Part shown: piece after piece, positions 766 through 53,231 of the stretch
Layout: the number at the start of each line of letters is the position of its first letter
Position numbering within the stretch: position 1 is the first letter of the stretch
Source: Fictibacillus phosphorivorans
GTDB lineage: Bacteria > Bacillota > Bacilli > Bacillales > Fictibacillaceae
DNA: 64,000 nucleotides
NCBI RefSeq assembly: GCF_001629705.1
Contig: NZ_CP015378.1
Span: 2,232,001 to 2,296,000, forward strand
Reading direction: 5' to 3'
Position numbers and translations under genes: made by a program
Notes under the pieces: model-generated
Seen by the model: the letters and a program-made list of their open reading frames with translations, nothing else
Databases searched by the model: none
Told to the model about the DNA's origin: nothing

Positions 766-806
766 AAGAAATGACGAAGAGTCCCAGGCAACCACCCAGG
801 ACTCTT
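766..806 (-). terminator. Probable terminator of the DUF1349 gene
   Basis: Inverted repeat AAGAGTCC / GGACTCTT (777-784 and 799-806) just beyond the minus-strand stop at 829. On the minus strand it is followed by a T-rich but interrupted tract. Confidence 0.6.
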
Positions 807-828
807 ATAAAGACTTTGGTTTGTTTTA

Positions 829-19010: not shown

Positions 19011-19028
19011 GTAAAACTCCTCCTATCC

Positions 19029-20900: not shown

Positions 20901-20913
20901 CAAAACCCCTCCC

Positions 20914-23783: not shown

Positions 23784-23793
23784 AACAATCACC

Positions 23794-24180: not shown

Positions 24181-24410
24181 GAGAGTCCTCCGTTCTTCAC
24201 ACCATCCCATAATGCTTTCGCGATACCTTCGAATTCTCCTGGGTTCGCGACAATCACATAACAGACGACCGCGAAGATGAAACTTGAGAAGAACTGGCCC
24301 CATCGTTGCGAGATAAAAGCGCGAACGATCATCACGATCATGATGATAAAGAGTACGGCGGCCACTTGCGTCGACACATAATCTGTTAGTCCAGTAAGAT
24401 CTGGTAACAT
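24177..24410 (-). CDS. TcpD-like small conjugation membrane protein
   Basis: 77 residues with two hydrophobic helices (AAVLFIIMIVMIVRAFI and FFSSFIFAVVCYVIVA) and a short acidic/glycine-rich end. GGAGGG before ATG, four bases after TcpC; stop overlaps TcpE. Size, topology and gene order match TcpD of pCW3 and the matching small protein of Tn916-like elements. Confidence 0.75.
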   Translation of the reverse strand: MLPDLTGLTDYVSTQVAAVLFIIMIVMIVRAFISQRWGQFFSSFIFAVVCYVIVANPGEFEGIAKALWDGVKNGGLS

Positions 24411-24414
24411 GGTT

Positions 24415-33568: not shown

Positions 33569-33582
33569 CTATGTTGTTGTAC
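33551..33582. repeat. Dispersed ACATATATGT palindrome
   Basis: Exact ACATATATGT at 33556-33565 followed by TATGTTGTTGTACG, overlapping the last codons and 3' flank of the LacI gene. Same word family as the parA region at 52-53 kb. Confidence 0.6.
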
Positions 33583-34549
33583 GATGTATTAAAGTAAATG
33601 ATAGATTAGTAACTTTCTTATGATCCTTGCCTTGAATTGCCCGAATCATCTCTTGCATCGTATGTCTTGCCATATCCTCAATCGGTTGTTTCACTGTAGA
33701 TAGACCCAGCAGTTCCGCTAACGGTTGGTTATCAAAACCGACTATTGCAAGATCCTCAGGCACCCGCCAGCCACTATCCCTAGCTGCTTTTAGTAAACCC
33801 GCAGCAACCTCATCACTACCTGTAAAGATTGCTTCTGGTCTGTTTTTTAATGCTTTTATACGATGAAACACTTTCTTTCCGTCTTCTATACTGATCGCAT
33901 TATACTGATACCAGTCCTCATTAATGTCTAATCCTGTTTCTTTCATAGCCAGTTCGTACCCTTTTCTCCGGTCTCTTGTTAACCTCGATCTTCTCTCACT
34001 TCCCGCACAATACGCGATTTTTTTGTATCCACGTTCAATAAGATGTTTTGTTCCGAGATAACCACCTTCTACTTGATTGAGAAAGATCGAAGGAACATGA
34101 GCTTCATCGTCGTATTCATTACAAATGACGATAGGACCCTCGTTCACATAAGGTTGAACGTGTCTCCATTCGTTTTCAATTGAAGTTAGAATCACACCGT
34201 CTACTTGTTTTGTTCTTAATAGCTCCAAAAACTTTACTTCTTGTTTTTTGCTGTATTGCGTCTGACAAAGAATAAGTTGATAACCATACATCGCTGCCTC
34301 GTTCTCCATCACTTCTACCAGATGGCTGAAGAAAGGGTTAGTGATTCGAGGAACGAATACAGCGATCGTATCTGTCTTGACTTTGCGTAATCGCTGCGCA
34401 GAACTATTTGGCACATAGTTTAATTGTTTCATTGCATTTAATATCTTTTGTTTCTTTTCTTCTGCAACATAAGGGTGGCAATTCAGTACCCTTGAAACGG
34501 TCGTACGAGAGATACCTGCTAGTCTTGCCACATCATGAATCGTAGCCAT
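33569..34549 (-). CDS. LacI-family regulator of the glucan operon
   Basis: 326 residues: N-terminal LacI helix-turn-helix (ATIHDVARLAGISRTTVSRVLN) and hinge, then a periplasmic-binding-like sensor (DTIAVFVPRITNPFFSHLVE; GFDNQPLAELLGLSTV). Last gene of the ROK-permease-GH31 operon, 16 bases after the intracellular GH31 gene. It probably represses the operon until a cyclic or linear glucan fragment is inside. No operator could be assigned. Confidence 0.9.
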   Translation of the reverse strand: MATIHDVARLAGISRTTVSRVLNCHPYVAEEKKQKILNAMKQLNYVPNSSAQRLRKVKTDTIAVFVPRITNPFFSHLVEVMENEAAMYGYQLILCQTQYSKKQEVKFLELLRTKQVDGVILTSIENEWRHVQPYVNEGPIVICNEYDDEAHVPSIFLNQVEGGYLGTKHLIERGYKKIAYCAGSERRSRLTRDRRKGYELAMKETGLDINEDWYQYNAISIEDGKKVFHRIKALKNRPEAIFTGSDEVAAGLLKAARDSGWRVPEDLAIVGFDNQPLAELLGLSTVKQPIEDMARHTMQEMIRAIQGKDHKKVTNLSFTLIHRTTT

Positions 34550-34565
34550 CTAAAACATCCATCCT

Positions 34566-37500
34566 TTAATAAAGATAACCCACATCACATTTTTTTAGTT
34601 CTTTTACTCTGCAACGCTTGTTGTTAATGGTGATCACATCTTCTTGGGAGAGCTGTGACTTCATAAACAATAGTTTCAAATCTGAAATTTTACTTTCCAT
34701 CGTGATCTGCCATTCTGCATCTACTATATTTGCTCTTAAATAGAGTTTTTGGTTCAAGTGATCCTTAATTTGAACGTCCATCCCGTCTTCTAGAAAGATC
34801 CTTGCTACAGAATTTGTATACCTATCAATCTGGTTACCGACATATGAACCCAACTTAAGAGTGCTATCTGTATTCCCTAGCAACACACACCCTTGTTTGA
34901 CGTAGACCGGAATTTTTTCAAGAGGTGCGTGAACACGTTTATATTGCGGTCCAACGGTCTTTTCACCCGTCCATAGACAATACCAAGTGCCAAGAGGAAA
35001 ATAGACGTTTCGCTCTGTACTTCCTTCTTCGATAACTGGTGCGACGAGCAGATTCTCTCCAAACATGTATTGATCAAACATTGTTTTAACACTAGAATCG
35101 TCCGGATACTGTAGACATAGAGCACGCATGAGCGGAATGCCTGAGATACTTGAGTGTCTTGCTTGATCATAGATATATGGTAAAAGGTTCATACGAACGT
35201 TCGCAAAGAACCGATACCCTTCAATTGCATAGTCTTTTCCCGTTCTCTCTGCAATGTTCCACGGTGTACGGTCTTGATTGTGTTCTCCTTTACTCTCAGC
35301 GTGATATTGCATAATCGGACAGAAGGCAGCCATCTGTGCGGAACGGATGAAGAGTTCCGCAGTTGGTATATCTCCATTAAAACCACCTAAGTCCCATCCC
35401 CAGAACGGAATACCCGAAAGACCTGATGATAATCCTGCGATCAACGAACGTTGAAAGGCTTCAAACGTGGAACGCTCATCTCCTGCCCAGTGTGCCGGGA
35501 ATTTTTGTGCGCCAGTATACCCCGCTCTACTAAACGTCATTGCACTTCCCGGATCTTTAGCATTCGCAAAATCGTAGTACGCTTCTACATAATCGTTCGG
35601 ATATTGGTTTCGCATCTCATCTCCCGTGCGTCCATCTGAAAAGAGGAGATCTTTACCGAATACGAATTCACCACCATCTGTCTTAAATCCATCTACTCCG
35701 ATATCAAGAAGATATTGTCTTTTATTGAACCACCATTCTTTTCCTTCAGGTGAAGAGAAGTCCATCAACATGCTCTCTTTGAACCAGCCTTCTGGCATAC
35801 GGTACGGTGTCCTGTTGTTTTTTTTTACCATAAACCCTTTTTGGATCATGTAGTTTTCATCACTATCTTTTTGATGATGATGTTGACGGTTTAAGTATTT
35901 CATGATCGGGATCTGCCAAAGAATGAGTTTCAGACCGTTGTCATGAAGATAGTCCGTGAGCCCTTTAGGATCTGGCCATCTCCCCCATTCTGGGAAATGA
36001 AAATCTTCATAACGATGGTAGTCGTTCTCTTCTTTTACGGTATACTCTGCATCGTTAAAGATATAATAAGTCGCTTCATCACTCCACTGCTCTAATACTA
36101 ATACGGTAGAAGGAATCTTTAGCTCGTTCGTTAACTCAACCTGTTCTCGCACGACTTTATCTCGATCCCAATTGTTACTCGACATCCATGGTCCGAAGGC
36201 CCAAACAGGTGGAAGGATGGGTCTACCTGTTTCTAACGTGAACTGTTGAATCACTTCTGTAATCCCACCTGTGAACAGGTGCATCTTGAATGGATCCTCT
36301 CCGAGGTCACACTCAATCTGTAAGAGATCATATAGGTTAGAACCGAGATCGAAATTACTCCATCTCAATGTGTCGATCCACATCCCATAACCTGTAGAAC
36401 TAACAAAATAAGGGACAGGCATATACGTTCGTGTTCCCTGATCTCGATATTGGTTGTAAACAAAACAATCAAGTACGTTCCCACGCTGATCTAACGAATT
36501 ATACCTCTCACCGAACCCGTATAGTTTCTCTCCTTCTTTAAGTGTAAAGTTAAATTTCAGTTTTTTTGATACTTGTTTATTTGTCAGCCAAGAGATCGGA
36601 TATAGGTTCTTTTCATGGCTCTCTAAAATCGTCTCTCCATTTGAATTTCTAAGTTTGATGGAAAAAGGATTTTTTTGTAATTCATACACATAGTTCGGCT
36701 GTGAGATAACATATTTACCTCCTATGTCTTCGACGGGAGTTTCCTCATAGGTTAACGCTTGTGGTTCATTAAATTGAACAGAGAGTATAGAGTGATTGTG
36801 CTCTAACTGAAAACCTAAATAGATTAATGGATTTGCAAAAAGGTCTTCTCCTTTAAACCAAACCGTCTTCTCAACATTCCCGATGTATTGGACCGATTTA
36901 ATAGCGTTGGTTTGTAGAGGAGACAAATGATAGCTTTTACTAGCTGCTACTTCTCCTTTATCTTTTAGCGCTTTAAAGGAGTAGTATGCATCTTGTGTAA
37001 AGCTTCCTATGTTTGCTTTCCATGTTGTTTCATTCTCTTTTATACATGGAACTGTTCTTATGTTGTTACCGCTAGTTACCGATACATACAGGTGATCGAT
37101 ATCAGTCGGCCAGATTTCTGCACAAACGATTACATCTTGCGACTGAAGAGGATCATTAGGAAAACGTTCAACAGGCTGCGGCTCATAATGGTTCCCGTGT
37201 CCGTATGGTTTATGAATGATCTGATAATCTGAATCAAGTTTTAGACTCTCATCAAGATAGTAGGTTACGATTTCAAGAAGGCTCTCTGTTAGTACATCTT
37301 CTCTTTTGTTTTTAGTTCGTTTTATTGTCTCATCGTAATAATTTCTAGCTTTATTCAGATCTCCTTTTTCCGTAAAATAAAGAGCCAACCAAGCACAGCT
37401 CGCAGAAGAATGAACGTTATCTCCTGGTGCGGTGAACACACCTTGATGTGACACGAGTCGAGACTCGATCTCTTTAACAGCTTCAACCATAATCAAGTCT

Positions 37501-38024
37501 TCGGGTGAGAAGAGCCCGAATGGCATAACTGTCGCAAGAAGATCTGTAGAGACCGTTTGTTTGTTTGGCGAGCTGATTAACATACCGCCAGTTAGCCCGT
37601 GATTAAAGAAGTAATCTCGAATCTCTGTGAGATCTGCCTGTAGATAGTTCATTCCTAGTTGTTGTTTCACAGCTAATAGCGCAGCGTATGTGATCCCTAG
37701 GTTAGAAAAATAAACTTCCCTTTCTGAAGTTGGCTTGAATAGGTTATATTGTGGTAGTTGCCAAGTATTTCTTAATGTCTCAACGATTTTTTCAATCTTC
37801 TCTTGGTATATGAGAGTAAGGTCATGCCTTCCTATCCTCTTATCATGCTGAACGACAGACCAAACCCAGCTGCCAAGATAAAAGAGGCTCTCTTCGGATT
37901 CAGGTGGTTGATAGTCGTTTAATAGTTTTTCAGAGTGGACAAAATCATTTTTTAATTGAGAAGCATGTGCTTTTATAATAGAAGAAAAAGCGATAAATGG
38001 TTTATCTGTGTCTTGTAAGATCAT
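34566..38024 (-). CDS. Intracellular GH31 enzyme, probable cycloalternan-degrading 3-alpha-isomaltosyl hydrolase
   Basis: 1152 residues, no signal peptide. Residues about 1-270 form a helical alpha/alpha-type domain (FYLGSWVWSVVQHDKR, FSNLGITYAALLAVKQ, AWLALYFTEKGDLNKARNYY), unusual in GH31. A beta-sandwich follows, then the GH31 barrel with nucleophile Asp in GFKTDGGE (about 780) and acid/base Asp in WAGDERS (about 847). The barrel is clearly paralogous to the secreted CtsY-like enzyme (both have ALVLEQWSDE or TVLVLEQWSDE and FKTDGGE). Position after the importer indicates it opens the imported cyclic tetrasaccharide, like Listeria Lmo2444. Confidence 0.8.
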   Translation of the reverse strand: MILQDTDKPFIAFSSIIKAHASQLKNDFVHSEKLLNDYQPPESEESLFYLGSWVWSVVQHDKRIGRHDLTLIYQEKIEKIVETLRNTWQLPQYNLFKPTSEREVYFSNLGITYAALLAVKQQLGMNYLQADLTEIRDYFFNHGLTGGMLISSPNKQTVSTDLLATVMPFGLFSPEDLIMVEAVKEIESRLVSHQGVFTAPGDNVHSSASCAWLALYFTEKGDLNKARNYYDETIKRTKNKREDVLTESLLEIVTYYLDESLKLDSDYQIIHKPYGHGNHYEPQPVERFPNDPLQSQDVIVCAEIWPTDIDHLYVSVTSGNNIRTVPCIKENETTWKANIGSFTQDAYYSFKALKDKGEVAASKSYHLSPLQTNAIKSVQYIGNVEKTVWFKGEDLFANPLIYLGFQLEHNHSILSVQFNEPQALTYEETPVEDIGGKYVISQPNYVYELQKNPFSIKLRNSNGETILESHEKNLYPISWLTNKQVSKKLKFNFTLKEGEKLYGFGERYNSLDQRGNVLDCFVYNQYRDQGTRTYMPVPYFVSSTGYGMWIDTLRWSNFDLGSNLYDLLQIECDLGEDPFKMHLFTGGITEVIQQFTLETGRPILPPVWAFGPWMSSNNWDRDKVVREQVELTNELKIPSTVLVLEQWSDEATYYIFNDAEYTVKEENDYHRYEDFHFPEWGRWPDPKGLTDYLHDNGLKLILWQIPIMKYLNRQHHHQKDSDENYMIQKGFMVKKNNRTPYRMPEGWFKESMLMDFSSPEGKEWWFNKRQYLLDIGVDGFKTDGGEFVFGKDLLFSDGRTGDEMRNQYPNDYVEAYYDFANAKDPGSAMTFSRAGYTGAQKFPAHWAGDERSTFEAFQRSLIAGLSSGLSGIPFWGWDLGGFNGDIPTAELFIRSAQMAAFCPIMQYHAESKGEHNQDRTPWNIAERTGKDYAIEGYRFFANVRMNLLPYIYDQARHSSISGIPLMRALCLQYPDDSSVKTMFDQYMFGENLLVAPVIEEGSTERNVYFPLGTWYCLWTGEKTVGPQYKRVHAPLEKIPVYVKQGCVLLGNTDSTLKLGSYVGNQIDRYTNSVARIFLEDGMDVQIKDHLNQKLYLRANIVDAEWQITMESKISDLKLLFMKSQLSQEDVITINNKRCRVKELKKCDVGYLY

Positions 38025-38049
38025 CTTTATCTCTCCTGTTACAAAGAGA

Positions 38050-38071
38050 CAGCCAAGAAAATTCTTGGCTG
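38050..38071 (-). terminator. Intercistronic hairpin after the binding-protein gene
   Basis: Perfect CAGCCAAGAA / TTCTTGGCTG stem with two-base loop, 13 bases after the lipoprotein stop. No T-run follows on the transcribed strand, so it more likely stabilises the abundant binding-protein mRNA and lowers downstream expression than terminates fully. Confidence 0.7.
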
Positions 38072-38083
38072 CACTTTTTTTGA

Positions 38084-39352
38084 TTATTTTTTGATCAATG
38101 TGTTCAATTCTTTTTCAACATTCTTTAAAGCCTCTTCAGGTGTTGCCTGCCCAAGCTTTACTTTATCGAGCTCTTTCCCAAACATATCCGTCATCTTGCT
38201 CCACTCTTCGATCACTGGTGGTACGACTAATGTATCGAGTGCTTTAAAGACAACATCTCTGCTCTCTGGTGGTGATTTTTCTAGATAACCTTTAACAAGC
38301 GCATCGTTTGATACCGCTGGGAGTTCCCATGCACTATCAATTCTGATCTTTGCAGCTTCCTCAGAACTACTCATAAACTGTGCCCACTTCCAAGCTGCTT
38401 CTGCGTTCTTTGTCTTCTTTGAAACAGCGAGGCCGTTAGCAAAGAAGTGATGGGCTTTTTGTGTGTTCCCTGGCTCTAACGCGATATCCCATTTGAACGG
38501 TACGTCTTTGAAGCCATCGAACATCCAGATACCTGTTCGGAGCATCGCGATCTTGCCCGCTTTAAACAGATCTTCGTTCGCCTGACCAGACATTTCTTTT
38601 TCAGTAGGCGTCACATGGTATTTGTTCATCTTATCCATCATCCATGTTAGAGTTTCTACGTTTTCAGGACTGTTTACAGTTACTTCTGTCTTATCTTCGT
38701 TCAGGATCGAACCACCGTTTTGTGCGATCGTCTTATAGAATTCCCAGAACTGAACGGGTGCGTACGTACCGTAAACGCCATTCTTCTTATCCGTAAGTTT
38801 CTCAGCTGCCGCTAGCTCTTCCTTCCATGTCCAGCTCTCATTCGGATATTCAACACCTGCTTTATCAAAAAGGTCTTTGTTATAAAAAAGGACTACGTTT
38901 GAGAAACTCTCTACCATCCCGTACTGTTTCCCATCGTACTGAAATGCTTCATACGCTTTTTTGTTGATGCTATCTGGCTTAAAGTTCGTATCTTTCTCGA
39001 TTAGTGGATCAAGTTCTAATAGAGCACCTTTAGAAGCGTAACTCACAAAGTTCTCATAGTTTAGTTCAAACACATCCGGTGCATTATTCCCAGCGATCTG
39101 CGTTTGAAGTTTTGTAAAATAATCATCAAAAGAAGCCAGTTCGTAATCTACTTTGATTTTCGGATTCTTCTTCTCGAAAGCCTCGATCATCGCTTTAAGT
39201 TCATCTTCATGATCTTCACCTGGTGAGAAGGCAAAATACTTTAATGTTACCGTACCGTCTTTACTTGCACCTGTAGTTTTTTCAGAACTACATCCTGCGC
39301 TGATTCCTACCAACAGAAATAGAATAATAGCCCAGATACCCGATTTTTTCAT
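38084..39352 (-). CDS. Sugar-binding lipoprotein of ABC importer
   Basis: 422 residues from ATG 39352 (GAGGGG seven bases upstream). Lipoprotein signal with lipobox ISAGC, then an extracellular solute-binding family 1 protein (MalE-like: EAFEKKNPKIKVDYELASFDDYFTKLQTQIAG; FANGLAVSKKTKNAEAAWKWAQFM). It captures the glucan product outside the cell and delivers it to the two permeases encoded upstream. Its leader GGGTATAAACATGAAAAAA is the same as that of the secreted 1280-aa enzyme. Confidence 0.92.
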   Translation of the reverse strand: MKKSGIWAIILFLLVGISAGCSSEKTTGASKDGTVTLKYFAFSPGEDHEDELKAMIEAFEKKNPKIKVDYELASFDDYFTKLQTQIAGNNAPDVFELNYENFVSYASKGALLELDPLIEKDTNFKPDSINKKAYEAFQYDGKQYGMVESFSNVVLFYNKDLFDKAGVEYPNESWTWKEELAAAEKLTDKKNGVYGTYAPVQFWEFYKTIAQNGGSILNEDKTEVTVNSPENVETLTWMMDKMNKYHVTPTEKEMSGQANEDLFKAGKIAMLRTGIWMFDGFKDVPFKWDIALEPGNTQKAHHFFANGLAVSKKTKNAEAAWKWAQFMSSSEEAAKIRIDSAWELPAVSNDALVKGYLEKSPPESRDVVFKALDTLVVPPVIEEWSKMTDMFGKELDKVKLGQATPEEALKNVEKELNTLIKK

Positions 39353-39372
39353 GTTTATACCCCTCATCTTTT

Positions 39373-40254
39373 TTATTTGATCCCACTTAATGTAATCCCT
39401 TTGATGAAGTATTTCTGAGCGAATAAATAGACAGCTAAGATCGGAATAACACTAATCACGACTCCAGCCATTAATAGGTTCCAATCCGTTGCCCACCTCC
39501 CTTGAAGAATTGAAAGTCCAAGCGGCAGTGTCATCAGTTCTTGGTTACTCACGATGATCAACGGCCAAAGAAAATTGTTCCATGATTGCATGAACGAGAA
39601 GATAGCGAGTGTCGCAAGAGCCGGTTTTGATAATGGCAAGATGATCTGAAAGAACACCCTAAAATGACTGGCTCCATCTATAAACGCTGCTTCTTCTAAC
39701 GATTTTGGTATTCCTAAGAAGAACTGACGCAACAAGAACGTACCGAATGCGTTAAAAAGACCTGGGAGTATCAACCCTTGATAAGTATCTAACCAGCCGA
39801 GATACTTCATTAGAATGAACTGTGGTGTCATCGTAACCTGCATCGGGACCATCAGTGTCGCAAGATAGATAAGAAATAGGGTATCCCTTCCCCTAAAATG
39901 AAGCCTTGAAAAAGCGTACGCTGCCATCGAACAGAGAAGCAATTGTCCGAGTGTTGAAGTGACCGCTACAAAAAAGCTGTTAAAAAGAAACTTCCAGATT
40001 GGAAACGACTCTGCTACTTCTGCATAGTTGGTAAAAGTAATCGTGTCTGGTATGAACTGTGGCGGAAGCGTCATCGTCGCCCCTTGATCTTTGATAGATG
40101 TTGATAACATCCACAGAAACGGGATGATCATGATGAGCGCTCCTACACTGATAGTGGTGTAGAAGATAATTTTATTCAGCCATTTCCTCTTATTCAGTGA
40201 GAGGAGTGGTTGTGTGGTTTGTTTTTTCGTGACGACCGTTACATCACTGTTCAT
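39373..40254 (-). CDS. ABC sugar permease, MalG-like
   Basis: 293 residues, six transmembrane helices. The EAA loop LEEAAFIDGASHFRVFFQIILPL contacts the ATPase. Overlaps the MalF-like gene by 11 bases. No ATP-binding gene is present in the cluster; in Bacillus such importers share MsmX, so the same is likely here. Confidence 0.93.
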   Translation of the reverse strand: MNSDVTVVTKKQTTQPLLSLNKRKWLNKIIFYTTISVGALIMIIPFLWMLSTSIKDQGATMTLPPQFIPDTITFTNYAEVAESFPIWKFLFNSFFVAVTSTLGQLLLCSMAAYAFSRLHFRGRDTLFLIYLATLMVPMQVTMTPQFILMKYLGWLDTYQGLILPGLFNAFGTFLLRQFFLGIPKSLEEAAFIDGASHFRVFFQIILPLSKPALATLAIFSFMQSWNNFLWPLIIVSNQELMTLPLGLSILQGRWATDWNLLMAGVVISVIPILAVYLFAQKYFIKGITLSGIK

Positions 40255-41128
40255 AATCGACCCACCTCTTTTGTAGTCTGTTCTGTATCAGGGTAACAAC
40301 AAAGATGATTAAAAAGAGTACCCATGACACCGCTGAGGCATAGCCCATCTCAAAATAGCGAAAAGCATGGTTGTAAATTTTTTGTACGAGGACTGTTGTT
40401 GAACCAGCAGGTCCTCCTTCAGTCATGATCATAATTTGATCAAACACTTGGAACGAGTTAATTAGCGAGATAATAAGTATAAAGAAAGTCGTAGGTGTAA
40501 GAAGTGGTATCGTGATGTGTAGAAATTTCTTATAAGGTGAAGCGCCATCAATTTCTGCAGCTTCATAGTAAGTTTCCGAGATGTTTTGTAACCCTGCTAA
40601 GAATAAGACCATAACAAAGCCGGTATCTTTCCAAACACTCGTTAGTACAACTGCGATCATGGCCCACTGTGGATCTTGTAACCAATCAGGACCAATGATT
40701 CCAAACCAAGATAAGAAGTAGTTTACTAGACCATACGTTGGGTTAAAGAGCCATTTCCAGATGAGTGATACAGCGACCCAAGACGAGACAACTGGGATGA
40801 AATAAGCTGCGCGGAAGAACGCTCTTCCTTTCATGTTTTTATTCAACAGCATCGCGATACCTAGAGCTACGATTAATACGGTTGGTAGGTAGGCTACGAT
40901 GAACAGAAGCGTATTTTTTAGTGCAGACCAGAATTCTGCGTCATTAATAATTCCCTTATAATTATCAAGACCAATAAACTCAGGAGTTGATAACAGATCC
41001 CATTTTGTAAAACTAAGTCCGAGGGATGTGAGTATAGGGATACCAATAAAGACAAGAAAACCGATAAAGTTTGGTAATAGGAAAAAACTGATGACTAGCC
41101 ATTTTTTCCACCCTTTATCCCCTACCAT
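40244..41128 (-). CDS. ABC sugar permease, MalF-like
   Basis: 294 residues, six helices. EAA loop YYEAAEIDGASPYKKFLHITIPLL. Pairs with the MalG-like subunit. Follows the ROK gene by 12 bases with a GGAGG ribosome site. The substrate is inferred from neighbours: a cyclic tetrasaccharide or related alpha-glucan fragment. Confidence 0.93.
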   Translation of the reverse strand: MVGDKGWKKWLVISFFLLPNFIGFLVFIGIPILTSLGLSFTKWDLLSTPEFIGLDNYKGIINDAEFWSALKNTLLFIVAYLPTVLIVALGIAMLLNKNMKGRAFFRAAYFIPVVSSWVAVSLIWKWLFNPTYGLVNYFLSWFGIIGPDWLQDPQWAMIAVVLTSVWKDTGFVMVLFLAGLQNISETYYEAAEIDGASPYKKFLHITIPLLTPTTFFILIISLINSFQVFDQIMIMTEGGPAGSTTVLVQKIYNHAFRYFEMGYASAVSWVLFLIIFVVTLIQNRLQKRWVDYEQ

Positions 41129-41140
41129 CTTGATCCTCCT

Positions 41141-42361
41141 CTACTTGATTAAGAGTTCTGATTCCTCGTATAACGGAACTTGGAACAGCTGGTTGATGGC
41201 AAGAAGTGCAGCACCTTGCACCCAAGCATCGTCACCAAGTTTAGATAACTTGATCTCTGTCTTACAGTTTGCGTTCGAGAAGAAATTCTGATCGGCAAGT
41301 TTCAGTGCATACGGTAAGAAGAAGTCTTTTGCGATCATACCTTCACCAACTAGAACGACCATGGAAGGATTGAAACTGTTTATCGCACTTACCATGCCGA
41401 CTCCTATGTTCTTACCAAGCCTTCTCAAGAGTTCGATCGCGAGATCATCTCGTTTCGTTGCCGCTTGATAGACTTCTGAAAACGAAAAATCATCATTTAA
41501 AAGTGTGTTGGTATATTGTGCTTTAAGATAGTTTCCTTCTATCGCTAGAAACGGTTCAGATGCATACATCTCAAGACAACCGTTCTGGCCACAATGACAT
41601 TTATAACCGTCGATATTAACGATGATATGTCCGAATTCTCCTGCCCCACCGTGTTCACCGTAGTAAAGTTGATTGTTGATTACGATTCCTGTTCCGATAC
41701 CCGCTCCAACGGATAAACAGATAAAGTTCCCGTGAAGACGACCGATTCCTAACCAATATTCAGCCAACGTGTAAGCGTTTACATCGTTATCGATAAAAAT
41801 AGGAACGTGGTAGCGTTCTCTAAGTTGTTCACATAAATCGATATCCTCCCAGTTGAGAAGCGTCGATCGTAAGACCTTGCCCTCTTTTCCACTGATGAGT
41901 CCAGAAGAAGCGAGTCCGATTCCTAAGATGTATTCATTTGTGATTCTAAATTCAAATAAAATTTCTTCGATGCCTTGTTGTATCGTATCTAGTACGACCT
42001 CAGGTGAACTTCCTTTGATGAAAGAATAATGTTTCTTTAGGAGGATGGTAGCTTTTAAGTTTGTGAGGGCAATGATGACTTGTTTTTCTTCGATCTTGAT
42101 GCCGAACGTATAGCCGAAGTTGTCATTTAACTCTAGGAGGATAGGGCGTCTGCCGCCTGTGGAAGTAGCGGTTCCTACTTCAAAAACTAGGTTGTTCGAG
42201 ATCAAGTCTTCTACGATATTTGTGACAGTCGATAAACTGAGCTTCACTTTCTTTGAAACATCCGTCCGACTGATAGGGCCGTTCACCCGTATGTATTCAA
42301 TGACGAGTGCACGATTGATATCTTTAATCAGATTTCGATTTCCTATTCGTAATTTGTCCAT
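41141..42361 (-). CDS. ROK-family (XylR/NagC-like) regulator
   Basis: About 406 residues. N-terminal winged helix-turn-helix (NGPISRTDVSKKVKLSLSTVTNIVEDLI), then a ROK sugar-kinase-like domain with the zinc motif CHCGQNGCLE and the phosphate loop SVGAGIGTGIVI. First gene of the importer operon. Preferred start is ATG 42361, seven bases after GGAAAGG. It presumably senses a sugar from the pathway; two regulators (ROK and LacI) bracket the operon. Confidence 0.9.
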   Translation of the reverse strand: MDKLRIGNRNLIKDINRALVIEYIRVNGPISRTDVSKKVKLSLSTVTNIVEDLISNNLVFEVGTATSTGGRRPILLELNDNFGYTFGIKIEEKQVIIALTNLKATILLKKHYSFIKGSSPEVVLDTIQQGIEEILFEFRITNEYILGIGLASSGLISGKEGKVLRSTLLNWEDIDLCEQLRERYHVPIFIDNDVNAYTLAEYWLGIGRLHGNFICLSVGAGIGTGIVINNQLYYGEHGGAGEFGHIIVNIDGYKCHCGQNGCLEMYASEPFLAIEGNYLKAQYTNTLLNDDFSFSEVYQAATKRDDLAIELLRRLGKNIGVGMVSAINSFNPSMVVLVGEGMIAKDFFLPYALKLADQNFFSNANCKTEIKLSKLGDDAWVQGAALLAINQLFQVPLYEESELLIK

Positions 42362-42392
42362 AATCATACCTTTCCTTTATTTTCTAATTATG

Positions 42393-42421
42393 ATTATAAC
42401 TTCCTTTATTCAGTGAAGCAA
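42393..42421 (-). promoter_or_regulatory. Promoter of the ROK-importer-GH31 operon
   Basis: On the minus strand: -35 TTGCTT (42416-42421), 17-base spacer, -10 TATAAT (42393-42398), 32 bases before the start codon. Confidence 0.7.
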
Positions 42422-42454
42422 GTATATATTTTAACTTTTCTGACATTTATTTTT

Positions 42455-42490
42455 AAAGAAAAAGCCAATCCTAAATGTCAGGATAAGCTT
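42455..42490 (-). terminator. Terminator after ctsZ
   Basis: On the minus strand AAGCTTATCC, 9-base loop, GGATTGGCTT then TTTTCTTT. It separates the secreted-enzyme transcript from the importer operon. Confidence 0.8.
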
Positions 42491-42498
42491 TTCTACCA

Positions 42499-45400
42499 CT
42501 ATTTTTTTATAACACTCACTTCATCGATATGAAGCGTCGTACCGCCTGGTGAATCGACATAAAATCCGATATCAATCGTATTGTTTGTCACATAGATATT
42601 GTCAAGGGAGATATACTTCCAACCATTGTTGTTTGATAAGTTGATATATTGTGCGGAGCCACCATAATTAGTGATCTCTGCTCTTGCAGTCGTCGGGATG
42701 GTGTTCTTTAATTTCACCCAACCTTCAAACTTATAATACGCATTGTTCTCTGGAACGGTAATCATTTGATGAATACTTTGTTTATACGCTCCTGGTGCGT
42801 ACATAAAAGCCCTTTTATCACTTCCAAAAGGTGATTCTGGAGGATTAATTCCAGATCCACTGTCGATACCAAATGCAACCGTCTGGCCTGTCGGATGCCA
42901 TTCTGTCCAATTGCTATTGAACGATGTATCCCGATCGAAGCCGCCATTATCTAGTAAGTTTTTTTCAGACTCGATGGTAGACGGAAGAGACGAACTTACA
43001 AGTAATCGATCAAGGTTCACATTTCCAGAATCCGTAGAATCGTATTTTACTGCAATCTTGTTTGAACCACTGTTTAAACTCACAGTCTGTGTAACTGTCT
43101 TCCAATCGTTCCAACTTCCTGTTACAGGAAAACTCATTTGGTTCGTCTTAGTTCCGTTCACGTATAAACTCATAGTCTTAGCTGTTGTAGCGCCGTTTGA
43201 GTACTTAAGAGATACCTGATAACTTCCTGCACTCGGAACATCTACTTGAAACTCAGACTGAGCACTCACGGCTGAGAACTTATCTGCGAACCCAGAACCT
43301 GAATAGAACCAGTGGTCTTTATTCGTTCCACTACCACCTGTTAAGGTAGAGCTCTCTGCCTCAAACTTCGCTGCAATAGGAGAAAATGGAACGGTGATGT
43401 TATCAATGTTTACGTTGCCAGAATCATCCATTTCCCCTGAATACTTATAGGTGATGATGTTCTGACCTGCATTTAACGCCAGAGTCTCAACTTTCGTCCC
43501 CCACGTATCCCAGTTAGCTAGATTCGTTAGAAGTGTTTGCTTAACACGTTTTCCGTTCACGAACACACTCACTTTTTGATTAGATCCTGAAGCGTTTGCA
43601 TATCTTAAATTAACCGAGTAGTCACCTGCTGTTTTTACGTTTGTGTAGAACGTAACGGCAGCTCCTTTATTATCAAAACCTTCCACAAAACCAGTTCCTG
43701 TGTAGTTTGTATGATTGTTATTAACTTTTGATTTTGTCGTAACTGTATCTCCTGATAACGAACCTTCTTCTGCTTCATATTGAATAGAAGTTGCAGAAAC
43801 CGTAGCGCTTCCGTTTAGCACGATGTTCTTTAAGGAAGTACTCTTAGCCGCTACTTTCACGTACGTAACATCTCCGTATTCATCTTTTCCAACAGCCCAT
43901 CCTTCTCCATTGAAAGACTGGAGTGCCTGTAAGTTTGATTGAGACGATAGTGCAGATCCATTGTTTGTTACTGAAGTTGCTGCTTTACCGTGCACTTTAA
44001 AGATGTAATATTCGAGAGAAGGGTTATACGTACCCGTCTTACCATTGATCTTTACATTGATTCCACTCGCTCCGTTGTCTTTCACGCTCAAAAACTGTTT
44101 TAGATGTGAAGTAGACTCGTATCCATATGATGTTCCATCGTCATCATAATAGTTGAACGTCGTCTCTGTAGAATCTGGGAATGTATCCACATAGATCGTC
44201 TTCACACTTGATTGCCCGACATAATCTTCCGCTTTTTGAGAAGGAATGATCGCTCCCTTCTTAATAAAGAGCGGTACATCTGTCCACGTTTCTGCGTTTA
44301 CCGGATAAGAGATCGTTTGATTTCCTGAATACGTTTTACCTTTAAAATAATCGATCCATGTACCAGATGGGAGATAGATGTTCTTAGAAGCTTGTTGTTT
44401 ACCAACAACTGGAGACACAAGCATATAGTCTCCAAACATCCACGAATCTACGTTGTTCTTAACATTTTGGTCATTTGGATAATCAAAGATTAACGGTCTG
44501 ACTAAACCTTTTCCATTTTCATACGCGCTTCGTTCGTAAGAATACATATAGGGAAGAAGTTTGTATCGAAGTTGGATGGAACTCTTCGAAATTTCTTCTG
44601 CTGTCGCTCCATAAAACCAGGGTTGACGTTGTTGGAAGTTGTTACCGTGTACTCTGAAAACAGGTGTGAACGCACTGAACTGCATCCATCTTGCATAAAG
44701 CTCTGGACTTGGGTTTGATATCGAACCATCTTGTTGGTTGAATCCTCCTGTGTCCATTCCCCATTTTGCTTGACCTAAGTTTACGGACGACAACATGACA
44801 GCACGTTGATCTTCCATTCCAGCAGCCCAATCAATCTTCTCGCCTTTTTTGAACTGAATCCCGATGTCTCCTGACCAAAGAGTGGTGCCGTAACGTTGGG
44901 CTCCTGGATAATAAGTTCGTGCGGTCTGCCATACTCGTTTGGTCTTGTTGGTATAACTGTTCTGCCCTTCAAATAACGCTTGAGAAAGATGAGTAGTCGT
45001 AAAGTTACCAAACCAATATTGTGCGGCACCTGATGATACCTTATCTGTCTCATCGTTCCACCAGCCTACGATACCTTTGTCAAAAGCATCTTTGGAGTTG
45101 TTCCAAAGCCAAGTCCGTGCGTTTGCGTTATAAGGATCGATGCTTCGAACGTTTACTGGAATAAAATAATCCTGGTATTCATTGTGACCGGGATACCAAT
45201 ATCCTCCCGCCTGTGCATCGTTGTATTGAACCGTCCGCTGACCTCCAGCGAGTTGTGTTACAATGCGTGGTTTTGTGATACCGATCATTTTAATTCCCTT
45301 ATTGTCCATGGTGGTCTTAAAGGCTGTTGAAGATGAACTTGGAAACTTCGTTGTATTCCATTTGAACTCTCCGTATTGGTCCTCTCCGTACTTCTTCCAA

Positions 45401-46341
45401 TCATAATCAAGTCCATAACTATCGATTGGAATGTTCTTTGCACGGTACGTATCGACCATCGATGTCATTTCAGTCTCATTCGTGTCCCATTCGAAGTTAG
45501 AGAAACCTAATGCCCATTTTGGTAGCATCGGAGCCCTTCCTGTAATTTCTGAAGCTGCATCCATAATCTCGTTCGGGTCACCTAGCATCACATAATAATC
45601 TAAATCCGTTTTTGTGTATCTCCTACCTTCAGTAGGTGTTCCACCGTAATAAAACTCCATCTTGCCTGTTACTTCATCCGTATAGGGATATCCTCCATCA
45701 CTATCTACTAAAAGGCCATACCCGGCGGTGGACCACATGAAAGGACCACCAGCATCTCCTTGCTCACCAGCATGAGCCCCGTGAGCGTTATTGTTACGAA
45801 GTATATCCCCTCCACCTTCAAACGCATTATAACTACGAATTCCATAGATGTTGTGGTTTACAGGATGAACGAACCTCACACCATCATAGAAGACCCCGCC
45901 TGTCGCAGGTTCCCATAACAAAGTGGTCCCGTCTGCTTTTTTAATCGTCATGCGACATGGGTTCTTTTGTATCTCAATCTTCATCTTGCTTGTCGATACA
46001 ACGATCGGATTTGATGTTGTGTTGATTGTAGCTCCCGCTGCCGCCCATGTCTTGTTCGGATCAATCATCGGAGTATCTGGACTTTGTGCCACTCCGTTTG
46101 GTCGATAGTTCACTTTCAAAATGTTTGTCTTTAGTACCTTTATCTCTAAAAGATCATCGTTCGGTTCTGCTCCATTGTCGATTGTGAGTAAGATTGTATC
46201 CCCCGTTACACTCGTATTGATTACATTCCCGAGTGCGTTCGCATACGCATGCGCTTTATGTTCAGGAAAAGAACTCAGAGGTACTAGTGAAAGTATCAGA
46301 ACTGAAAAGCTGATAAAAAAACGGCTCATTCTTTTTTTCAT
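42499..46341 (-). CDS. ctsZ: Secreted GH31 6-alpha-glucosyltransferase (CtsZ-like)
   Basis: 1280 residues; from memory, CtsZ of Bacillus globisporus has 1284. Signal peptide of about 33 residues, N-terminal beta-sandwich, GH31 barrel with nucleophile Asp in WWNDETD (about 429) and acid/base Asp in WSGDIG (about 490), then two CBM35-like modules (YEAEEGSLSGDTV..., FEAESSTLTGG...) and a C-terminal jelly roll starting NLLDNGGFDRD. The enzyme moves a glucosyl unit to the 6-position at the non-reducing end of alpha-1,4-glucans, making isomaltosyl ends for CtsY. Ribosome site GGGCGGG before ATG. Confidence 0.85.
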   Translation of the reverse strand: MKKRMSRFFISFSVLILSLVPLSSFPEHKAHAYANALGNVINTSVTGDTILLTIDNGAEPNDDLLEIKVLKTNILKVNYRPNGVAQSPDTPMIDPNKTWAAAGATINTTSNPIVVSTSKMKIEIQKNPCRMTIKKADGTTLLWEPATGGVFYDGVRFVHPVNHNIYGIRSYNAFEGGGDILRNNNAHGAHAGEQGDAGGPFMWSTAGYGLLVDSDGGYPYTDEVTGKMEFYYGGTPTEGRRYTKTDLDYYVMLGDPNEIMDAASEITGRAPMLPKWALGFSNFEWDTNETEMTSMVDTYRAKNIPIDSYGLDYDWKKYGEDQYGEFKWNTTKFPSSSSTAFKTTMDNKGIKMIGITKPRIVTQLAGGQRTVQYNDAQAGGYWYPGHNEYQDYFIPVNVRSIDPYNANARTWLWNNSKDAFDKGIVGWWNDETDKVSSGAAQYWFGNFTTTHLSQALFEGQNSYTNKTKRVWQTARTYYPGAQRYGTTLWSGDIGIQFKKGEKIDWAAGMEDQRAVMLSSVNLGQAKWGMDTGGFNQQDGSISNPSPELYARWMQFSAFTPVFRVHGNNFQQRQPWFYGATAEEISKSSIQLRYKLLPYMYSYERSAYENGKGLVRPLIFDYPNDQNVKNNVDSWMFGDYMLVSPVVGKQQASKNIYLPSGTWIDYFKGKTYSGNQTISYPVNAETWTDVPLFIKKGAIIPSQKAEDYVGQSSVKTIYVDTFPDSTETTFNYYDDDGTSYGYESTSHLKQFLSVKDNGASGINVKINGKTGTYNPSLEYYIFKVHGKAATSVTNNGSALSSQSNLQALQSFNGEGWAVGKDEYGDVTYVKVAAKSTSLKNIVLNGSATVSATSIQYEAEEGSLSGDTVTTKSKVNNNHTNYTGTGFVEGFDNKGAAVTFYTNVKTAGDYSVNLRYANASGSNQKVSVFVNGKRVKQTLLTNLANWDTWGTKVETLALNAGQNIITYKYSGEMDDSGNVNIDNITVPFSPIAAKFEAESSTLTGGSGTNKDHWFYSGSGFADKFSAVSAQSEFQVDVPSAGSYQVSLKYSNGATTAKTMSLYVNGTKTNQMSFPVTGSWNDWKTVTQTVSLNSGSNKIAVKYDSTDSGNVNLDRLLVSSSLPSTIESEKNLLDNGGFDRDTSFNSNWTEWHPTGQTVAFGIDSGSGINPPESPFGSDKRAFMYAPGAYKQSIHQMITVPENNAYYKFEGWVKLKNTIPTTARAEITNYGGSAQYINLSNNNGWKYISLDNIYVTNNTIDIGFYVDSPGGTTLHIDEVSVIKK

Positions 46342-46375
46342 GTTTATACCCGCCCTTCTTTGATTTCTAGAAAAT

Positions 46376-46405
46376 AGACTTAAGGAGGAAGTCCCCCTTA
46401 AGTCT
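46376..46405 (-). terminator. Hairpin between ctsY and ctsZ
   Basis: Perfect 10-bp arms AGACTTAAGG (46376-46385) and CCTTAAGTCT (46396-46405), 8 bases after the ctsY stop, followed on the minus strand by ATTTTCT. Partial terminator or mRNA-stabilising element setting the ratio of the two enzymes. Confidence 0.75.
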
Positions 46406-46412
46406 GGTAAAA

Positions 46413-49400
46413 CTACTTTCTGATAACGATATGATCAAGATTGATCCCAAGTTGGCTCAAGGAATCGTATTGCAAGCGAATCGTATTTCGTCCTGCGTTC
46501 ATAGTAATTGGAACCGTTGTCTTGTTCCAAGTATCCCAATTCGCGGTTAGAGGGAACGAGAGATCTTGTGTTTTAACTCCATTGATCAATAGAGCTCGTT
46601 TTGCGGTTCCCCCAGCGGAACTATATCTTACATCAAGTGAGTAACTACCAGCTGTCTCCGCAAAAACATCAAACTGTACTGCATCTCCCGTTGTTTCAAA
46701 TCCATCAACGAAACCAGTCCCAGTGAACCCTGGATGATCAGTGTTCGTTGTTACGTTTGTACGTGTAGCAAATTCAGCTTCATATTCAACTTTAGTCAAC
46801 CCGTTTAACACAACCGTACGACTAGTAGTAGAAGAAGGTAGTTTTACATAGGTCATCTTTTGAACCGAATCGTAAAACCATCCTTGTGTGGCAGAAGTGA
46901 GTGATGATAAAGATGTGTATGATGATAAAGCTGTACCACCGACCGTGACTGTAGTTGGTTTGGTTGAGAACACTTGAAGCGTACTTTTCGTATTGATAGC
47001 AGGTAAATTGATGGTCGTTTTGTTCTGGTCGTATTGCTCGACAGACGTAATCGTTTTTACGCCTCCACCGATATCATCGTTCCACTCGTACGTAGACGTA
47101 GCTTTTGGATAGATTCTGAATGTAAGGTTGTTATAACTGTTTAAACTGTTCCCTATTGTTCCACCCAATTGGTATTGAGCGTTTAAGTTCATCGGAATGA
47201 TCGCCCCTGCTTTTACGAAAACAGGAATATCATCTACACCTGCATAATAAGAGATTGTCTGTCCTCCTGGTCTTTGTTCACCGTGCCAAAAGTCGATCCA
47301 TTCTCCGTTTGGCAGATAGACGTTCTTGTTGGTCTGTCCTTCGTTGACAACTGGTGCGACGAGTAGGTTATCGCCAAACATATATTGTTCGTTCAAGCCA
47401 TGGGTGTTCACATCATTCGGATAATCAAGAACCATCGCTCGCATGAGTGGAATACCAGTATTACTTGTCTTCTTCGCTTCACTGTAGATATAAGGAAGAA
47501 GGTTCATACGAGTGTTCGTATACTTTGCAAACATAGGGATGATCGAATTGTCACCCGTTCTAGCGGCTGCGTTCCAAGGTGAGCGTTCCTCACTAGGAGT
47601 GGGTGACGCCTTTTCTGAGTGAAACTGCATCACTGGCGAAAAAGCTGCTTGTGACGTCGAGCGTTTGTAGAGTTCTGAAGTTGGGTAGTTCCCTGTAAAT
47701 CCAGCAAGATCCCAACTCATGAACGGTACGCCTGAGATACTCGCCGTAAGTCCTGCATTGATTGCTTGTTGGAACGCATAGAACGTAGATTCCTGATCAC
47801 CTGACCAGTACACTTGGTACTTTTGAGAACCAGTTGTCCCAGCACGACTAAATGTTAATGAATCGGATTTTTTGGAACGCGCAAAATCGTTGTAAGCTCT
47901 GATGTATTCGTTAGGATATTGGTTGCGCATCTCGTCTCCCTTTTTGCCGTTAGAGAACGTTGTGTTTCTTCCCCACACCATCTCTCCTCCATCGGTCTTG
48001 AATCCATCGATACCAATACCATCAAACAAGTAAGCTCGCTTTGACATCCACCAATTGGTCGCGTTTTGATTCGTAAAGTCTAAAAGTAAACTGTTTCCGA
48101 ACCATGAATCTAGCGGCAGTCTATACGCTCCGCCTTTTCCATCACTCACAGCATAGTTCTGTGACAACATATACGCTTCATCGTTATCTTTCTGTTGGTA
48201 CGCATACGGTGTATTCTTTTGGATAGGTACCTGCCACAGAATCAGTTTCATCCCGTTGTTATGTACCTCATCCGCCATCGCTTTAGGATTTGGCCATTTT
48301 CCTGCAGCTGGGAAGGTAAAATCGTTGTAAGAAAACGCTTGGTTACCAGGTTTAGCGGTATATTGTGCATCGTTGAATATATAGAACGTGTTTTCATCAC
48401 TCCATTGTTCGAGCACTAAAGCTGTTGCCGGTATGTTGTTTGCGTTCGCTTGGTTCATCGCGTTGGATACTTCTGATTGACGATCCCATTCGTTTGCTGA
48501 CATCCATAATCCGAATGCCCACTTCGGCAGCATGGTGGGTTTTGAAGTGATATCTGAGTAGTTAGAGACCACATCTTTCATATCTGATCCATAGATGAAA
48601 GAGTAATCCAACATGGAGTTCGCACTTCCACCTGTATCTGCTGTAAAGTTGTACATATCTGTTTTTTCAGTTGCGAGTTTGAACTTTGAATAATACGTCG
48701 TATTTAGATGGATTCCATAGCCGTTCGTGTTTACGAAGAACGGAATTGCCATGTATGTTTTCTCGTTTTGATTTTTGTATTGATTAAATACATACGTCTC
48801 AACATCAGTGCCTCGTTTTCTAAAGTTGTTGTAACGTTCACCAAATCCATAAAACTCTTCGTTCGTAGGTGAATAAAAATGGTTTTGTACTTTGTTCACG
48901 ATTGTCGATCCGTTCGTGAGCCAGGATAAGTTTCGGTTAGAGATGCTATCGTATTCTCTTGCGATCAGTGTCACACCATCAGGTTTGTAGACACTCATCT
49001 TGTAGGGGTTCTTATCAATTCTTATTTTCAACTTGGATGTCGATATCATGTAGTGAGAAGTGTTGTTTGTGACCGTGTAGTTTGCAAGGCCAGTCGCAAA
49101 AGTACTCGTTCCTTTTGGTGACAGTTGTACACGGAACACATCATCTGCTGTAAATGAGATGTTTATTTTCGGGGTAAAGCTCCCTTTATCAGGAACTGCA
49201 TTGAAGATTAGATTGTTTGTGTTGTTGGTAAGACCACTGATGCTGCTAACGCTTTCCCAATCAGTCACAGTAAACGAATAAGGACCAATTGTCTTTTCAT
49301 TTGCACCATCTTTGTTCGCATGGATCGTGTAGTTGATCACATCACCTTTTACGAAGCTGCCCATGTTTACTTCCCAATAGGTGTTGTTACCACTGTTGTA

Positions 49401-49688
49401 TTTCCAAGCTCCTCCTTTATTCGTCTGAGGAACTCCGTTCTTTGTCCAGGTAATCCATGTAGATTGTCCTGGTTCCACTGGCCACGTAGTAAGTTTGAGA
49501 TAAACGTTCTCGCCTGCTACAGGATCTCGTGGAAATCTTTCTGTTTGTTGAACGGTGTAAAGATCATCAATACCATACGGATCGTGAAACACCCCATCAA
49601 TAGCAAATGCACTTGGAATAGATGAAAAAAAGAAACATACAACCCAGAGCAAGATAAAACGTGGACGTGTTAATTTTTTTCTGTTCAT
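46413..49688 (-). CDS. ctsY: Secreted GH31 3-alpha-isomaltosyltransferase (CtsY-like, cycloalternan-forming)
   Basis: 1091 residues with a 29-residue signal peptide ending SAFA; as I recall, CtsY of B. globisporus has 1093 and a 29-residue signal. N-terminal CBM-like region (residues 30-145), beta-sandwich, GH31 barrel with nucleophile Asp in GFKTDGGE (about 565) and acid/base Asp in WSGDQES (about 630), and one C-terminal CBM35 (YEAEFATRTNVTTN...LDHIVIRK). It transfers isomaltosyl units alpha-1,3 and closes the ring. First gene of a ctsYZ transcript with a cre-type operator. Confidence 0.87.
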   Translation of the reverse strand: MNRKKLTRPRFILLWVVCFFFSSIPSAFAIDGVFHDPYGIDDLYTVQQTERFPRDPVAGENVYLKLTTWPVEPGQSTWITWTKNGVPQTNKGGAWKYNSGNNTYWEVNMGSFVKGDVINYTIHANKDGANEKTIGPYSFTVTDWESVSSISGLTNNTNNLIFNAVPDKGSFTPKINISFTADDVFRVQLSPKGTSTFATGLANYTVTNNTSHYMISTSKLKIRIDKNPYKMSVYKPDGVTLIAREYDSISNRNLSWLTNGSTIVNKVQNHFYSPTNEEFYGFGERYNNFRKRGTDVETYVFNQYKNQNEKTYMAIPFFVNTNGYGIHLNTTYYSKFKLATEKTDMYNFTADTGGSANSMLDYSFIYGSDMKDVVSNYSDITSKPTMLPKWAFGLWMSANEWDRQSEVSNAMNQANANNIPATALVLEQWSDENTFYIFNDAQYTAKPGNQAFSYNDFTFPAAGKWPNPKAMADEVHNNGMKLILWQVPIQKNTPYAYQQKDNDEAYMLSQNYAVSDGKGGAYRLPLDSWFGNSLLLDFTNQNATNWWMSKRAYLFDGIGIDGFKTDGGEMVWGRNTTFSNGKKGDEMRNQYPNEYIRAYNDFARSKKSDSLTFSRAGTTGSQKYQVYWSGDQESTFYAFQQAINAGLTASISGVPFMSWDLAGFTGNYPTSELYKRSTSQAAFSPVMQFHSEKASPTPSEERSPWNAAARTGDNSIIPMFAKYTNTRMNLLPYIYSEAKKTSNTGIPLMRAMVLDYPNDVNTHGLNEQYMFGDNLLVAPVVNEGQTNKNVYLPNGEWIDFWHGEQRPGGQTISYYAGVDDIPVFVKAGAIIPMNLNAQYQLGGTIGNSLNSYNNLTFRIYPKATSTYEWNDDIGGGVKTITSVEQYDQNKTTINLPAINTKSTLQVFSTKPTTVTVGGTALSSYTSLSSLTSATQGWFYDSVQKMTYVKLPSSTTSRTVVLNGLTKVEYEAEFATRTNVTTNTDHPGFTGTGFVDGFETTGDAVQFDVFAETAGSYSLDVRYSSAGGTAKRALLINGVKTQDLSFPLTANWDTWNKTTVPITMNAGRNTIRLQYDSLSQLGINLDHIVIRK

Positions 49689-49711
49689 AAGAACCCTCTT
49701 TCGTCTTTTAT

Positions 49712-49725
49712 TGAAAGCGTTTACT
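49712..49725 (-). promoter_or_regulatory. cre site (CcpA operator)
   Basis: TGAAAGCGTTTACT fits the cre consensus TGWAANCGNTNWCA at 13 of 14 positions. It lies about 3-16 bases past the expected transcription start, where CcpA blocks transcription when preferred sugars are present. Confidence 0.75.
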
Positions 49726-49734
49726 TTTTGGATG

Positions 49735-50227: not shown

Positions 50228-50263
50228 ACATAACTATTTCTAAAATTAGAGAGGGTGTTTGTT

Positions 50264-53215: not shown

Positions 53216-53231
53216 TAGTGAGGTGGAAATT

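Follow-up and report, generated by a model that had tools for sequence, protein, structure and literature searches.

Cycloalternan is made by two enzymes of glycoside hydrolase family 31 (GH31) and degraded by a third member of the family, according to the accessible part of PMC9061262. In Sporosarcina (Bacillus) globispora C11 and N75 a cyclic tetrasaccharide is formed from starch by way of a 6-alpha-glucosyltransferase and a 3-alpha-isomaltosyltransferase (PMC4616184). The binding protein Lmo0181 has been solved with the ring bound, and the accessible sections of PMC7676653 propose that such pathways convert starch into an exclusive form; a similar argument for cycloisomaltooligosaccharides is found in the available part of PMC13084667. 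Listeria monocytogenes holds its genes at two chromosomal loci (lmo2444-lmo2446 and lmo0178-lmo0184): the genes for the 3-alpha-isomaltosyltransferase (cycloalternan-forming enzyme, CAFE; Lmo2446) and the 6-glucosyltransferase lie on one strand with an internalin gene between them, and a separate cluster encodes a ROK protein, two permeases, a binding protein and a GH31 enzyme. Here we describe a stretch of DNA of the soil bacterium Fictibacillus phosphorivorans in which both halves form a single cassette on plasmid-type DNA. The window (64,000 nucleotides) spans positions 2232001-2296000 of NZ_CP015378.1, a single contig of 4,230,665 bases (G000:C1; genome completeness 100). Coordinates up to 64,000 refer to the window and larger ones to this contig. 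We estimate a probability of about 78% that this cassette, carried by an integrated plasmid, encodes a pathway that makes, imports and opens cycloalternan.

The cassette consists of eight intact open reading frames (ORFs), none of them interrupted, all encoded on the minus strand between 49,688 and 33,569. Pfam matches identify, in this order, a CAFE-type GH31 enzyme, a 6-glucosyltransferase-type GH31 enzyme, a ROK protein, permeases A and B, a solute-binding protein, an intracellular GH31 enzyme and a LacI protein. The intergenic gaps do not exceed 131 bp, and the two permease genes overlap. The ROK-to-GH31 part follows the same order as the separate Listeria cluster, with proteins that are 45-67% identical; the LacI gene is an addition relative to Listeria. 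As judged by eye, without a signal-peptide program, the N-termini of both large enzymes resemble signal peptides, that of the binding protein contains a lipobox-like motif, and the third GH31 enzyme has no signal. The corresponding enzymes of the S. globispora system bear the names CtsY (CAFE) and CtsZ.

The alignment of the CAFE-type protein with Lmo2446 (4kmq, 5i0d, 5f7u) begins at residue 28 or 29 and extends to residue 1091, with a best score of 1351.7 bits, and this homology includes the Lmo2446-like N domain, the GH31 barrel and the C-terminal CBM35. The CtsZ-type protein, with its own CBM35 stretches and a gene adjoining that of CAFE, aligns with 5x7o across residues 34-1278 (1720.7 bits). 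Since these scores extend over nearly the whole length of both proteins, the GH31 resemblance is not due to chance. Conserved motifs contain the expected aspartate pair in CAFE (Asp566 in GFKTDGG, Asp631 in WSGD), in the CtsZ-type protein (Asp430 in WNDETD, starting at residue 428, and Asp492 in WSGD, starting at 489) and in the third GH31 enzyme (Asp783 in GFKTDGG, Asp849 in WAGD). Two PDB variants differ at exactly the aligned positions: 5f7u (CAFE) has Asn at the first, and 5i0g (TpCADE, a cycloalternan-degrading enzyme, CADE, of solved structure) carries Ala at the second. These changes are probably catalytic-residue mutations, which would make the aligned aspartates the catalytic pair. 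None of the three GH31 proteins reaches the NCBIfam cut-off for alpha-xylosidase or alpha-glucosidase.

The binding protein has Lmo0181 (5f7v) as its best solved relative, with 501.4 bits against 126.9 for the runner-up, and both permeases are likewise homologous to the Listeria set. The third GH31 enzyme matches Lmo2446/CAFE with 624.5 bits, its N-terminus also matches 5hop, a piece of Lmo0182, and it is 46% identical to the 1100-aa Listeria protein Lmo0182 over 1103 columns. In a quick tree of 50 of 67 GH31 rows (17 near-duplicates removed; the solved CADEs 5f7s and 5x3i not among the rows), CAFE and CADE-like proteins fall on opposite sides of one branch (26 versus 22 rows). The third GH31 enzyme belongs to a clade distinct from CAFE, together with the GH31 enzyme of the Listeria import cluster. 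We also considered that it might be an Lmo0182-Lmo0183 fusion and dropped this idea, because 5hop is merely a 248-residue piece and the Listeria gene at this place codes for 1100 residues that are matched along their length.

These comparisons bear out most of what a preliminary description had derived from the letters of the window. All eight ORFs are as it listed them, including the exact sizes of 1091 and 1280 residues for the two leading GH31 enzymes; these enzymes fall with Lmo2446/CAFE and its partner enzyme and not with plain alpha-glucosidases or alpha-xylosidases, as bit scores, NCBIfam cut-offs and tree agree; and the importer corresponds to the Listeria route. The intracellular GH31 paralogue also stands, with the correction that its counterpart is Lmo0182 and not Lmo2444 or Lmo2446. 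We consider the pathway inferred there very likely.

In the proposed pathway, the 6-glucosyltransferase would act outside the cell and add alpha-1,6-linked glucose to the non-reducing end of maltodextrins, after which CAFE would transfer isomaltosyl units to O3 and close the four-sugar ring. The lipoprotein and the two permeases would then take up the ring, probably powered by an ATPase of the MalK/MsmX type from the host, and the Lmo0182-type enzyme would open it for final degradation by GH13 enzymes of the host. The cassette itself contains neither an ATP-binding cassette (ABC) ATPase nor a GH13 gene. The host genome contains one match to the OB_MalK domain, in a 376-aa frame, and eight GH13 matches, one of which is a 74-residue relic at 2231574-2231789. 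Control may be exerted by the ROK and LacI proteins and possibly by CcpA. Besides the cre/LacI-type palindrome in front of the CAFE gene, further exact palindromes of this type lie inside the ROK gene (41770-41783) and inside the TcpC gene (24945-24958). With up to one mismatch the window contains eight cre-type matches (both strands, palindromes counted twice), compared with a mean of 3.04 in 100 shuffled sequences, one of which also reached eight. Repeats of ATGCACC occur upstream of the CAFE gene.

The DNA around the cassette is of plasmid type. Among 17 window proteins tested, 15 have matches on G004:C5, 14 on G007:C3 (both from congeners) and 11 on a 26-kb stretch of the circular plasmid NZ_CP085396.1 of Peribacillus frigoritolerans CK6 (26,281 of 216,280 bp compared). 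Overlapping ends of 99 and 95 bases imply that G004:C5 (175,677 bases) and G007:C3 (129,484 bases) are circles. G004:C5 is reverse-collinear with contig positions 2231915-2343255, once round the circle and across its join; the match is broken by numerous unmatched gaps, and two pieces are inverted relative to the rest (window 62032-62764; contig 2310784-2311408). Further matches to G004:C5 at 2178331-2194635, 2220101-2220597, 2356098-2362906 and 2422592-2425557 lie outside the insert, which suggests that the neighbourhood contains more plasmid-like pieces. The CK6 plasmid shares the order of tcp genes, primase and helix-turn-helix (HTH) protein, but encodes ParM where the window has ParA. The distance between primase and HTH genes increases from 1.06 kb in CK6 to about 2.3 kb in G007:C3, 7.5 kb in G004:C5 and 19.9 kb in the window, where the extra DNA holds the PtuA/PtuB pair and the sugar cassette. 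Neither Ptu protein has a match on G004:C5, G007:C3 or the CK6 stretch; the cassette is absent from G004:C5 and from the compared CK6 block, and searches with the binding protein and CtsZ returned no match in G004 or G007. The position in a chromosome-sized contig, the plasmid backbone around the cassette and the absence of the cassette from the related plasmid DNA compared therefore suggest an integrated plasmid that carries the cassette as cargo. The same backbone encodes a SUKH/SMI1-type protein (55687-56490) as found in toxin-immunity sets, and short dispersed repeats at 60652-60722 and 61031-61106 have many matching places in congeneric genomes.

The preliminary description had placed the cassette on a conjugative plasmid and expected self-transmission from linkage to tcp and rep genes. 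The plasmid-family backbone and the linkage to a tcp gene set and a primase-type gene are confirmed; a separate circular replicon is not, since the region lies inside the 4.23-Mb contig, and self-transfer is unproven. Pfam revealed no relaxase domain in the 40 window ORFs scanned (of 63 with at least 100 aa, in a window that covers part of the insert), and the related CK6 plasmid is classed as non-mobilizable in PLSDB.

At the edges of the insert, DNA up to 2230648 matches the chromosome-sized contig G003:C1 of a congener at 80%, and DNA from 2345142 matches G004:C1 at 88%. A direct repeat over a DUF1349 gene lies near both ends of the plasmid-type region, and a tyrosine recombinase relic (2231075-2231419) stands beside the GH13 relic left of the window. 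This arrangement fits a plasmid that integrated with a partly doubled segment. There is no tRNA within the window, and inspection by eye of the insert ends revealed no target-site duplication. The left part of the window (1777-5175) also codes for two proteins with the serine beta-lactamase fold and a TetR regulator; because the two proteins score far under the NCBIfam beta-lactamase cut-offs, they are more likely esterase- or peptidase-like.

Table 1. Features of the window and of the plasmid-type region (window coordinates unless marked as contig)
Feature	Position	Strand	Basis
Secreted 3-alpha-isomaltosyltransferase, CAFE/CtsY/Lmo2446 type, 1091 aa (predicted)	46413..49688	-	Pfam: Lmo2446-like N domain, GH31, one CBM35 stretch
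Secreted 6-alpha-glucosyltransferase-type GH31 (CtsZ type), 1280 aa (predicted)	42499..46341	-	Pfam: GH31, two CBM35 stretches
ROK-family regulator	41141..42367	-	Pfam; 45% to ROK protein of Listeria cluster
ABC permease A	40244..41128	-	Pfam; 67% to Listeria permease
ABC permease B	39373..40254	-	Pfam; 65% to Listeria permease
Binding lipoprotein, Lmo0181 type	38084..39367	-	Pfam solute-binding protein; 59% to Listeria counterpart
Intracellular GH31, Lmo0182 type, 1152 aa, presumed ring-opening (putative CADE role)	34566..38024	-	Pfam: GH31, weaker Lmo2446-like N domain
LacI-family regulator	33569..34549	-	Pfam
cre/LacI-type palindrome, exact match to TGWAARCGYTWNCW	49712..49725	+	24-37 bp upstream of CAFE start
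tcp-type conjugation block: NlpC/P60 lytic enzyme, CD3337/EF1877 membrane protein, VirB4/TcpF-like ATPase, TcpE, TcpC, coupling ATPase	17985..27337	-	Profile matches; collinear on G004:C5, G007:C3, NZ_CP085396.1
PriCT_1 primase/replication-type protein	28790..30310	-	94/70/66% to three plasmids compared
PtuB and PtuA, Septu-type defence pair	31141..33070	-	1.4e-152 (PtuA) and 2.1e-97 (PtuB); same cargo slot as cassette
Putative replication or control protein (HTH, 606 aa) as found on large Bacillaceae plasmids	50255..52075	+	Matches in 28 plasmid records
ParA-type partition ATPase	53223..54062	+	Profile match; plasmid comparison
Tyrosine recombinase common to both congeneric circular contigs	57706..58806	-	95% and 92%
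Direct repeat over DUF1349 gene, 672 columns, 95.8% alike	777..1446 (contig 2232777-2233446) and G000:C1:2340920-2341589	.	Copies near both ends of plasmid-type region

Some observations pull against a cycloalternan pathway on an integrated plasmid, on the side of the enzymes as well as on that of the replicon. Among solved structures the larger enzyme is closest to 5x7o, which the PDB labels only as a GH31 alpha-glucosidase and which we take to be the 6-glucosyltransferase of Paenibacillus sp. 598K, a producer of cycloisomaltooligosaccharides. The enzyme of this strain supplies that other ring, and the pathway occurs in Paenibacillus, as stated in the available parts of PMC13084667 and PMC5408701. 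The extracellular pair might accordingly make a different alpha-glucan, such as alternating or branched isomaltosyl oligosaccharides or the substrate for cycloisomaltooligosaccharides, which the importer would then take up. We consider this very unlikely, given that the partner enzyme is CAFE over its full length, that the importer belongs to the Lmo0181 type, which binds the ring, and that Pfam revealed no GH66-type partner in the 40 window ORFs scanned. The third GH31 enzyme scores higher and over a longer stretch with CAFE (624 bits) than with the ring-degrading enzymes 5x3i and 5f7s (467 and 464 bits), and the latter are absent from the tree, so we base its presumed ring-opening role on its clade and on the gene order. 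In Listeria a second GH31 enzyme and a GH13 enzyme are encoded beside the Lmo0182 gene, and the cassette lacks equivalents of both. It is conceivable, if unlikely, that the third GH31 enzyme acts on a linear product and that another host enzyme opens the ring. Among matches to the CAFE query, however, it is the sole GH31 enzyme other than CAFE and CtsZ in the five Fictibacillus genomes with the importer, and it accompanies the importer in the three of these that lack the producer pair (G005, G015, G017).

As to the replicon, a free plasmid could have been wrongly joined into the chromosome contig, since repeats can mislead an assembly and the nearest relatives are contigs with the overlapping ends of circles. 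A candidate for a clean empty site in G004, where positions 2225739 and 2345142 are joined in homology over 84 bp, had to be dropped because the G004 junction interrupts a 397-aa ORF of which the genome of the window has an intact copy. Other pieces at this G004 site are out of order, and in G003 the flanking pieces follow a different order. Nonetheless, a misassembly appears quite improbable: the assembly is a single 4.23-Mb contig, both flanks match chromosome-sized contigs of congeners, and the terminal repeats are 95.8% alike, whereas an assembly overlap would be identical.

To see how the cassette is distributed, we compared 18 Fictibacillus genomes including the present one, within a wider set of 60 relatives. 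CtsZ (E up to 1e-30) occurs in 2 of the 18, namely the present genome and F. nanhaiensis MER TA 111 (G010), and the binding protein (E up to 1e-60) in five, with G005, G015 and G017 as the three that carry the import and opening half only. The CAFE query matches something in 36 of the 60 relatives, but only the present genome and G010 do so at 95-100%; the remaining matches are at most 45% identical over long stretches (other GH31 enzymes) or cover the short CBM35 part alone. G026, from the same family, has a CADE-like gene (52%), the binding protein (70%) and a permease (73%) with no CAFE in the 20 kb examined. F. nanhaiensis has the same eight genes (CAFE 95%, CtsZ 92% protein identity) and is homologous to the window at 33570-49862 only, with 84.6% DNA identity. 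Its cassette lies on a 1.54-Mb contig and, unlike that of F. phosphorivorans, is flanked by no plasmid-type homology within the 100 kb compared. Between these two cassettes, DNA identity is 87-90% for the importer and ROK genes, 85-87% for CtsZ and CAFE, and 79-81% for the CADE-like and LacI genes (33569-38024), so the cassette appears to be a mosaic, as if the CADE-LacI end had been exchanged.

The homology of the consumer-only genomes G005 and G015 covers 33570-42506 and 33570-42493, respectively, and thus ends within 7 bp of the CtsZ stop codon (42499-42501); that of G017 ends at 42452. The module copies of G005 and G015 are 96.5% alike and their common flanking DNA only 87-92%, which suggests that the module itself moves. 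The three consumer-only congeners also bear on the private-sugar strategy put forward in the preliminary description. This idea is already in print for sister cyclic glucans, as far as the accessible portions of PMC7676653 and PMC13084667 go, and its corollary that few neighbours can use the ring is weakened, because the ring is probably open to these relatives. Its privacy within the genus is doubtful.

In the wider comparison we examined 36 CAFE loci, comprising G010 and 35 others (left out are L005, which equals G010; L035, which is the opposite end of the L007 contig; and three Bacteroidota-type hits, L042-L044). These loci were collected with CAFE words, so that remote relatives are missed, and the DNA of each ends at 10 kb or at the contig end. 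The CtsZ gene adjoins CAFE on the same strand in all 36 loci; within the DNA available, both permeases are present in 29 and a CADE-like GH31 enzyme in 26. Gracilibacillus/Rossellomorea and Paenibacillus/Cohnella likewise have the CAFE-CtsZ pair beside the importer, mostly with a CADE-like GH31 enzyme, but there the pair is downstream of the import and opening genes, whereas in Fictibacillus it is upstream. The S. globispora system is alike in its two-enzyme synthesis, a likeness of described activities and not of sequences. In approximately unbiased (AU) tests the importer is not Paenibacillaceae-like (p 7.2e-24, 21 rows). CAFE rejects the grouping of the importer (p 0.00115, 18 rows) and also a grouping with Gracilibacillus/Rossellomorea (p 0.0129, 28 rows), the latter not clearly with 18 rows (p 0.0511). 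CtsZ is compatible with the grouping of the importer (p 0.0799) and leans to Gracilibacillus/Rossellomorea (81/96). The two halves give partly conflicting trees and the test results are mixed, so the evidence that the producer pair had an origin of its own is no more than suggestive.

A search of 72,556 PLSDB records, from which records close to the genome of the window may be left out, gave 213 matches to CAFE, three of which cover at least 80% of its length: two L. monocytogenes records (2.9 Mb; 594 kb with rnr and smpB) and one of Nonomuraea gerenzanensis (11.85 Mb). By size or gene content, all three look like chromosomes or pieces of chromosomes. More generally, NZ_LR134400.1, NZ_LR134402.1, NZ_CP030101.1 and NZ_LT559118.1 are filed as plasmids in PLSDB yet are chromosome-like by size or genes. 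A search of the open-licence PMC literature returned no paper that joins cycloalternan with the term conjugative.

The pathway and the private-sugar idea have been published before; what is new is the replicon context together with the split distribution. Within the collections searched, this would be the first producer pair on plasmid-type DNA. Related species of one genus have the complete set, the eating half only, or no part of it, and here the complete set is located on DNA of a mobile type. Tentatively, and with the odds still against it, we suggest that the genus has two separable modules: a widespread one for import and opening, and a producer pair that comes and goes as one unit bounded by the CtsZ stop codon, transported from species to species by large tcp-type plasmids that also bear a phage-defence pair. 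If so, the consumer-only species would be scavengers of a supposedly private sugar, and the plasmid would make a producer of a scavenger or a non-user. Such natural, near-isogenic producers and consumers would make the privacy idea directly testable.

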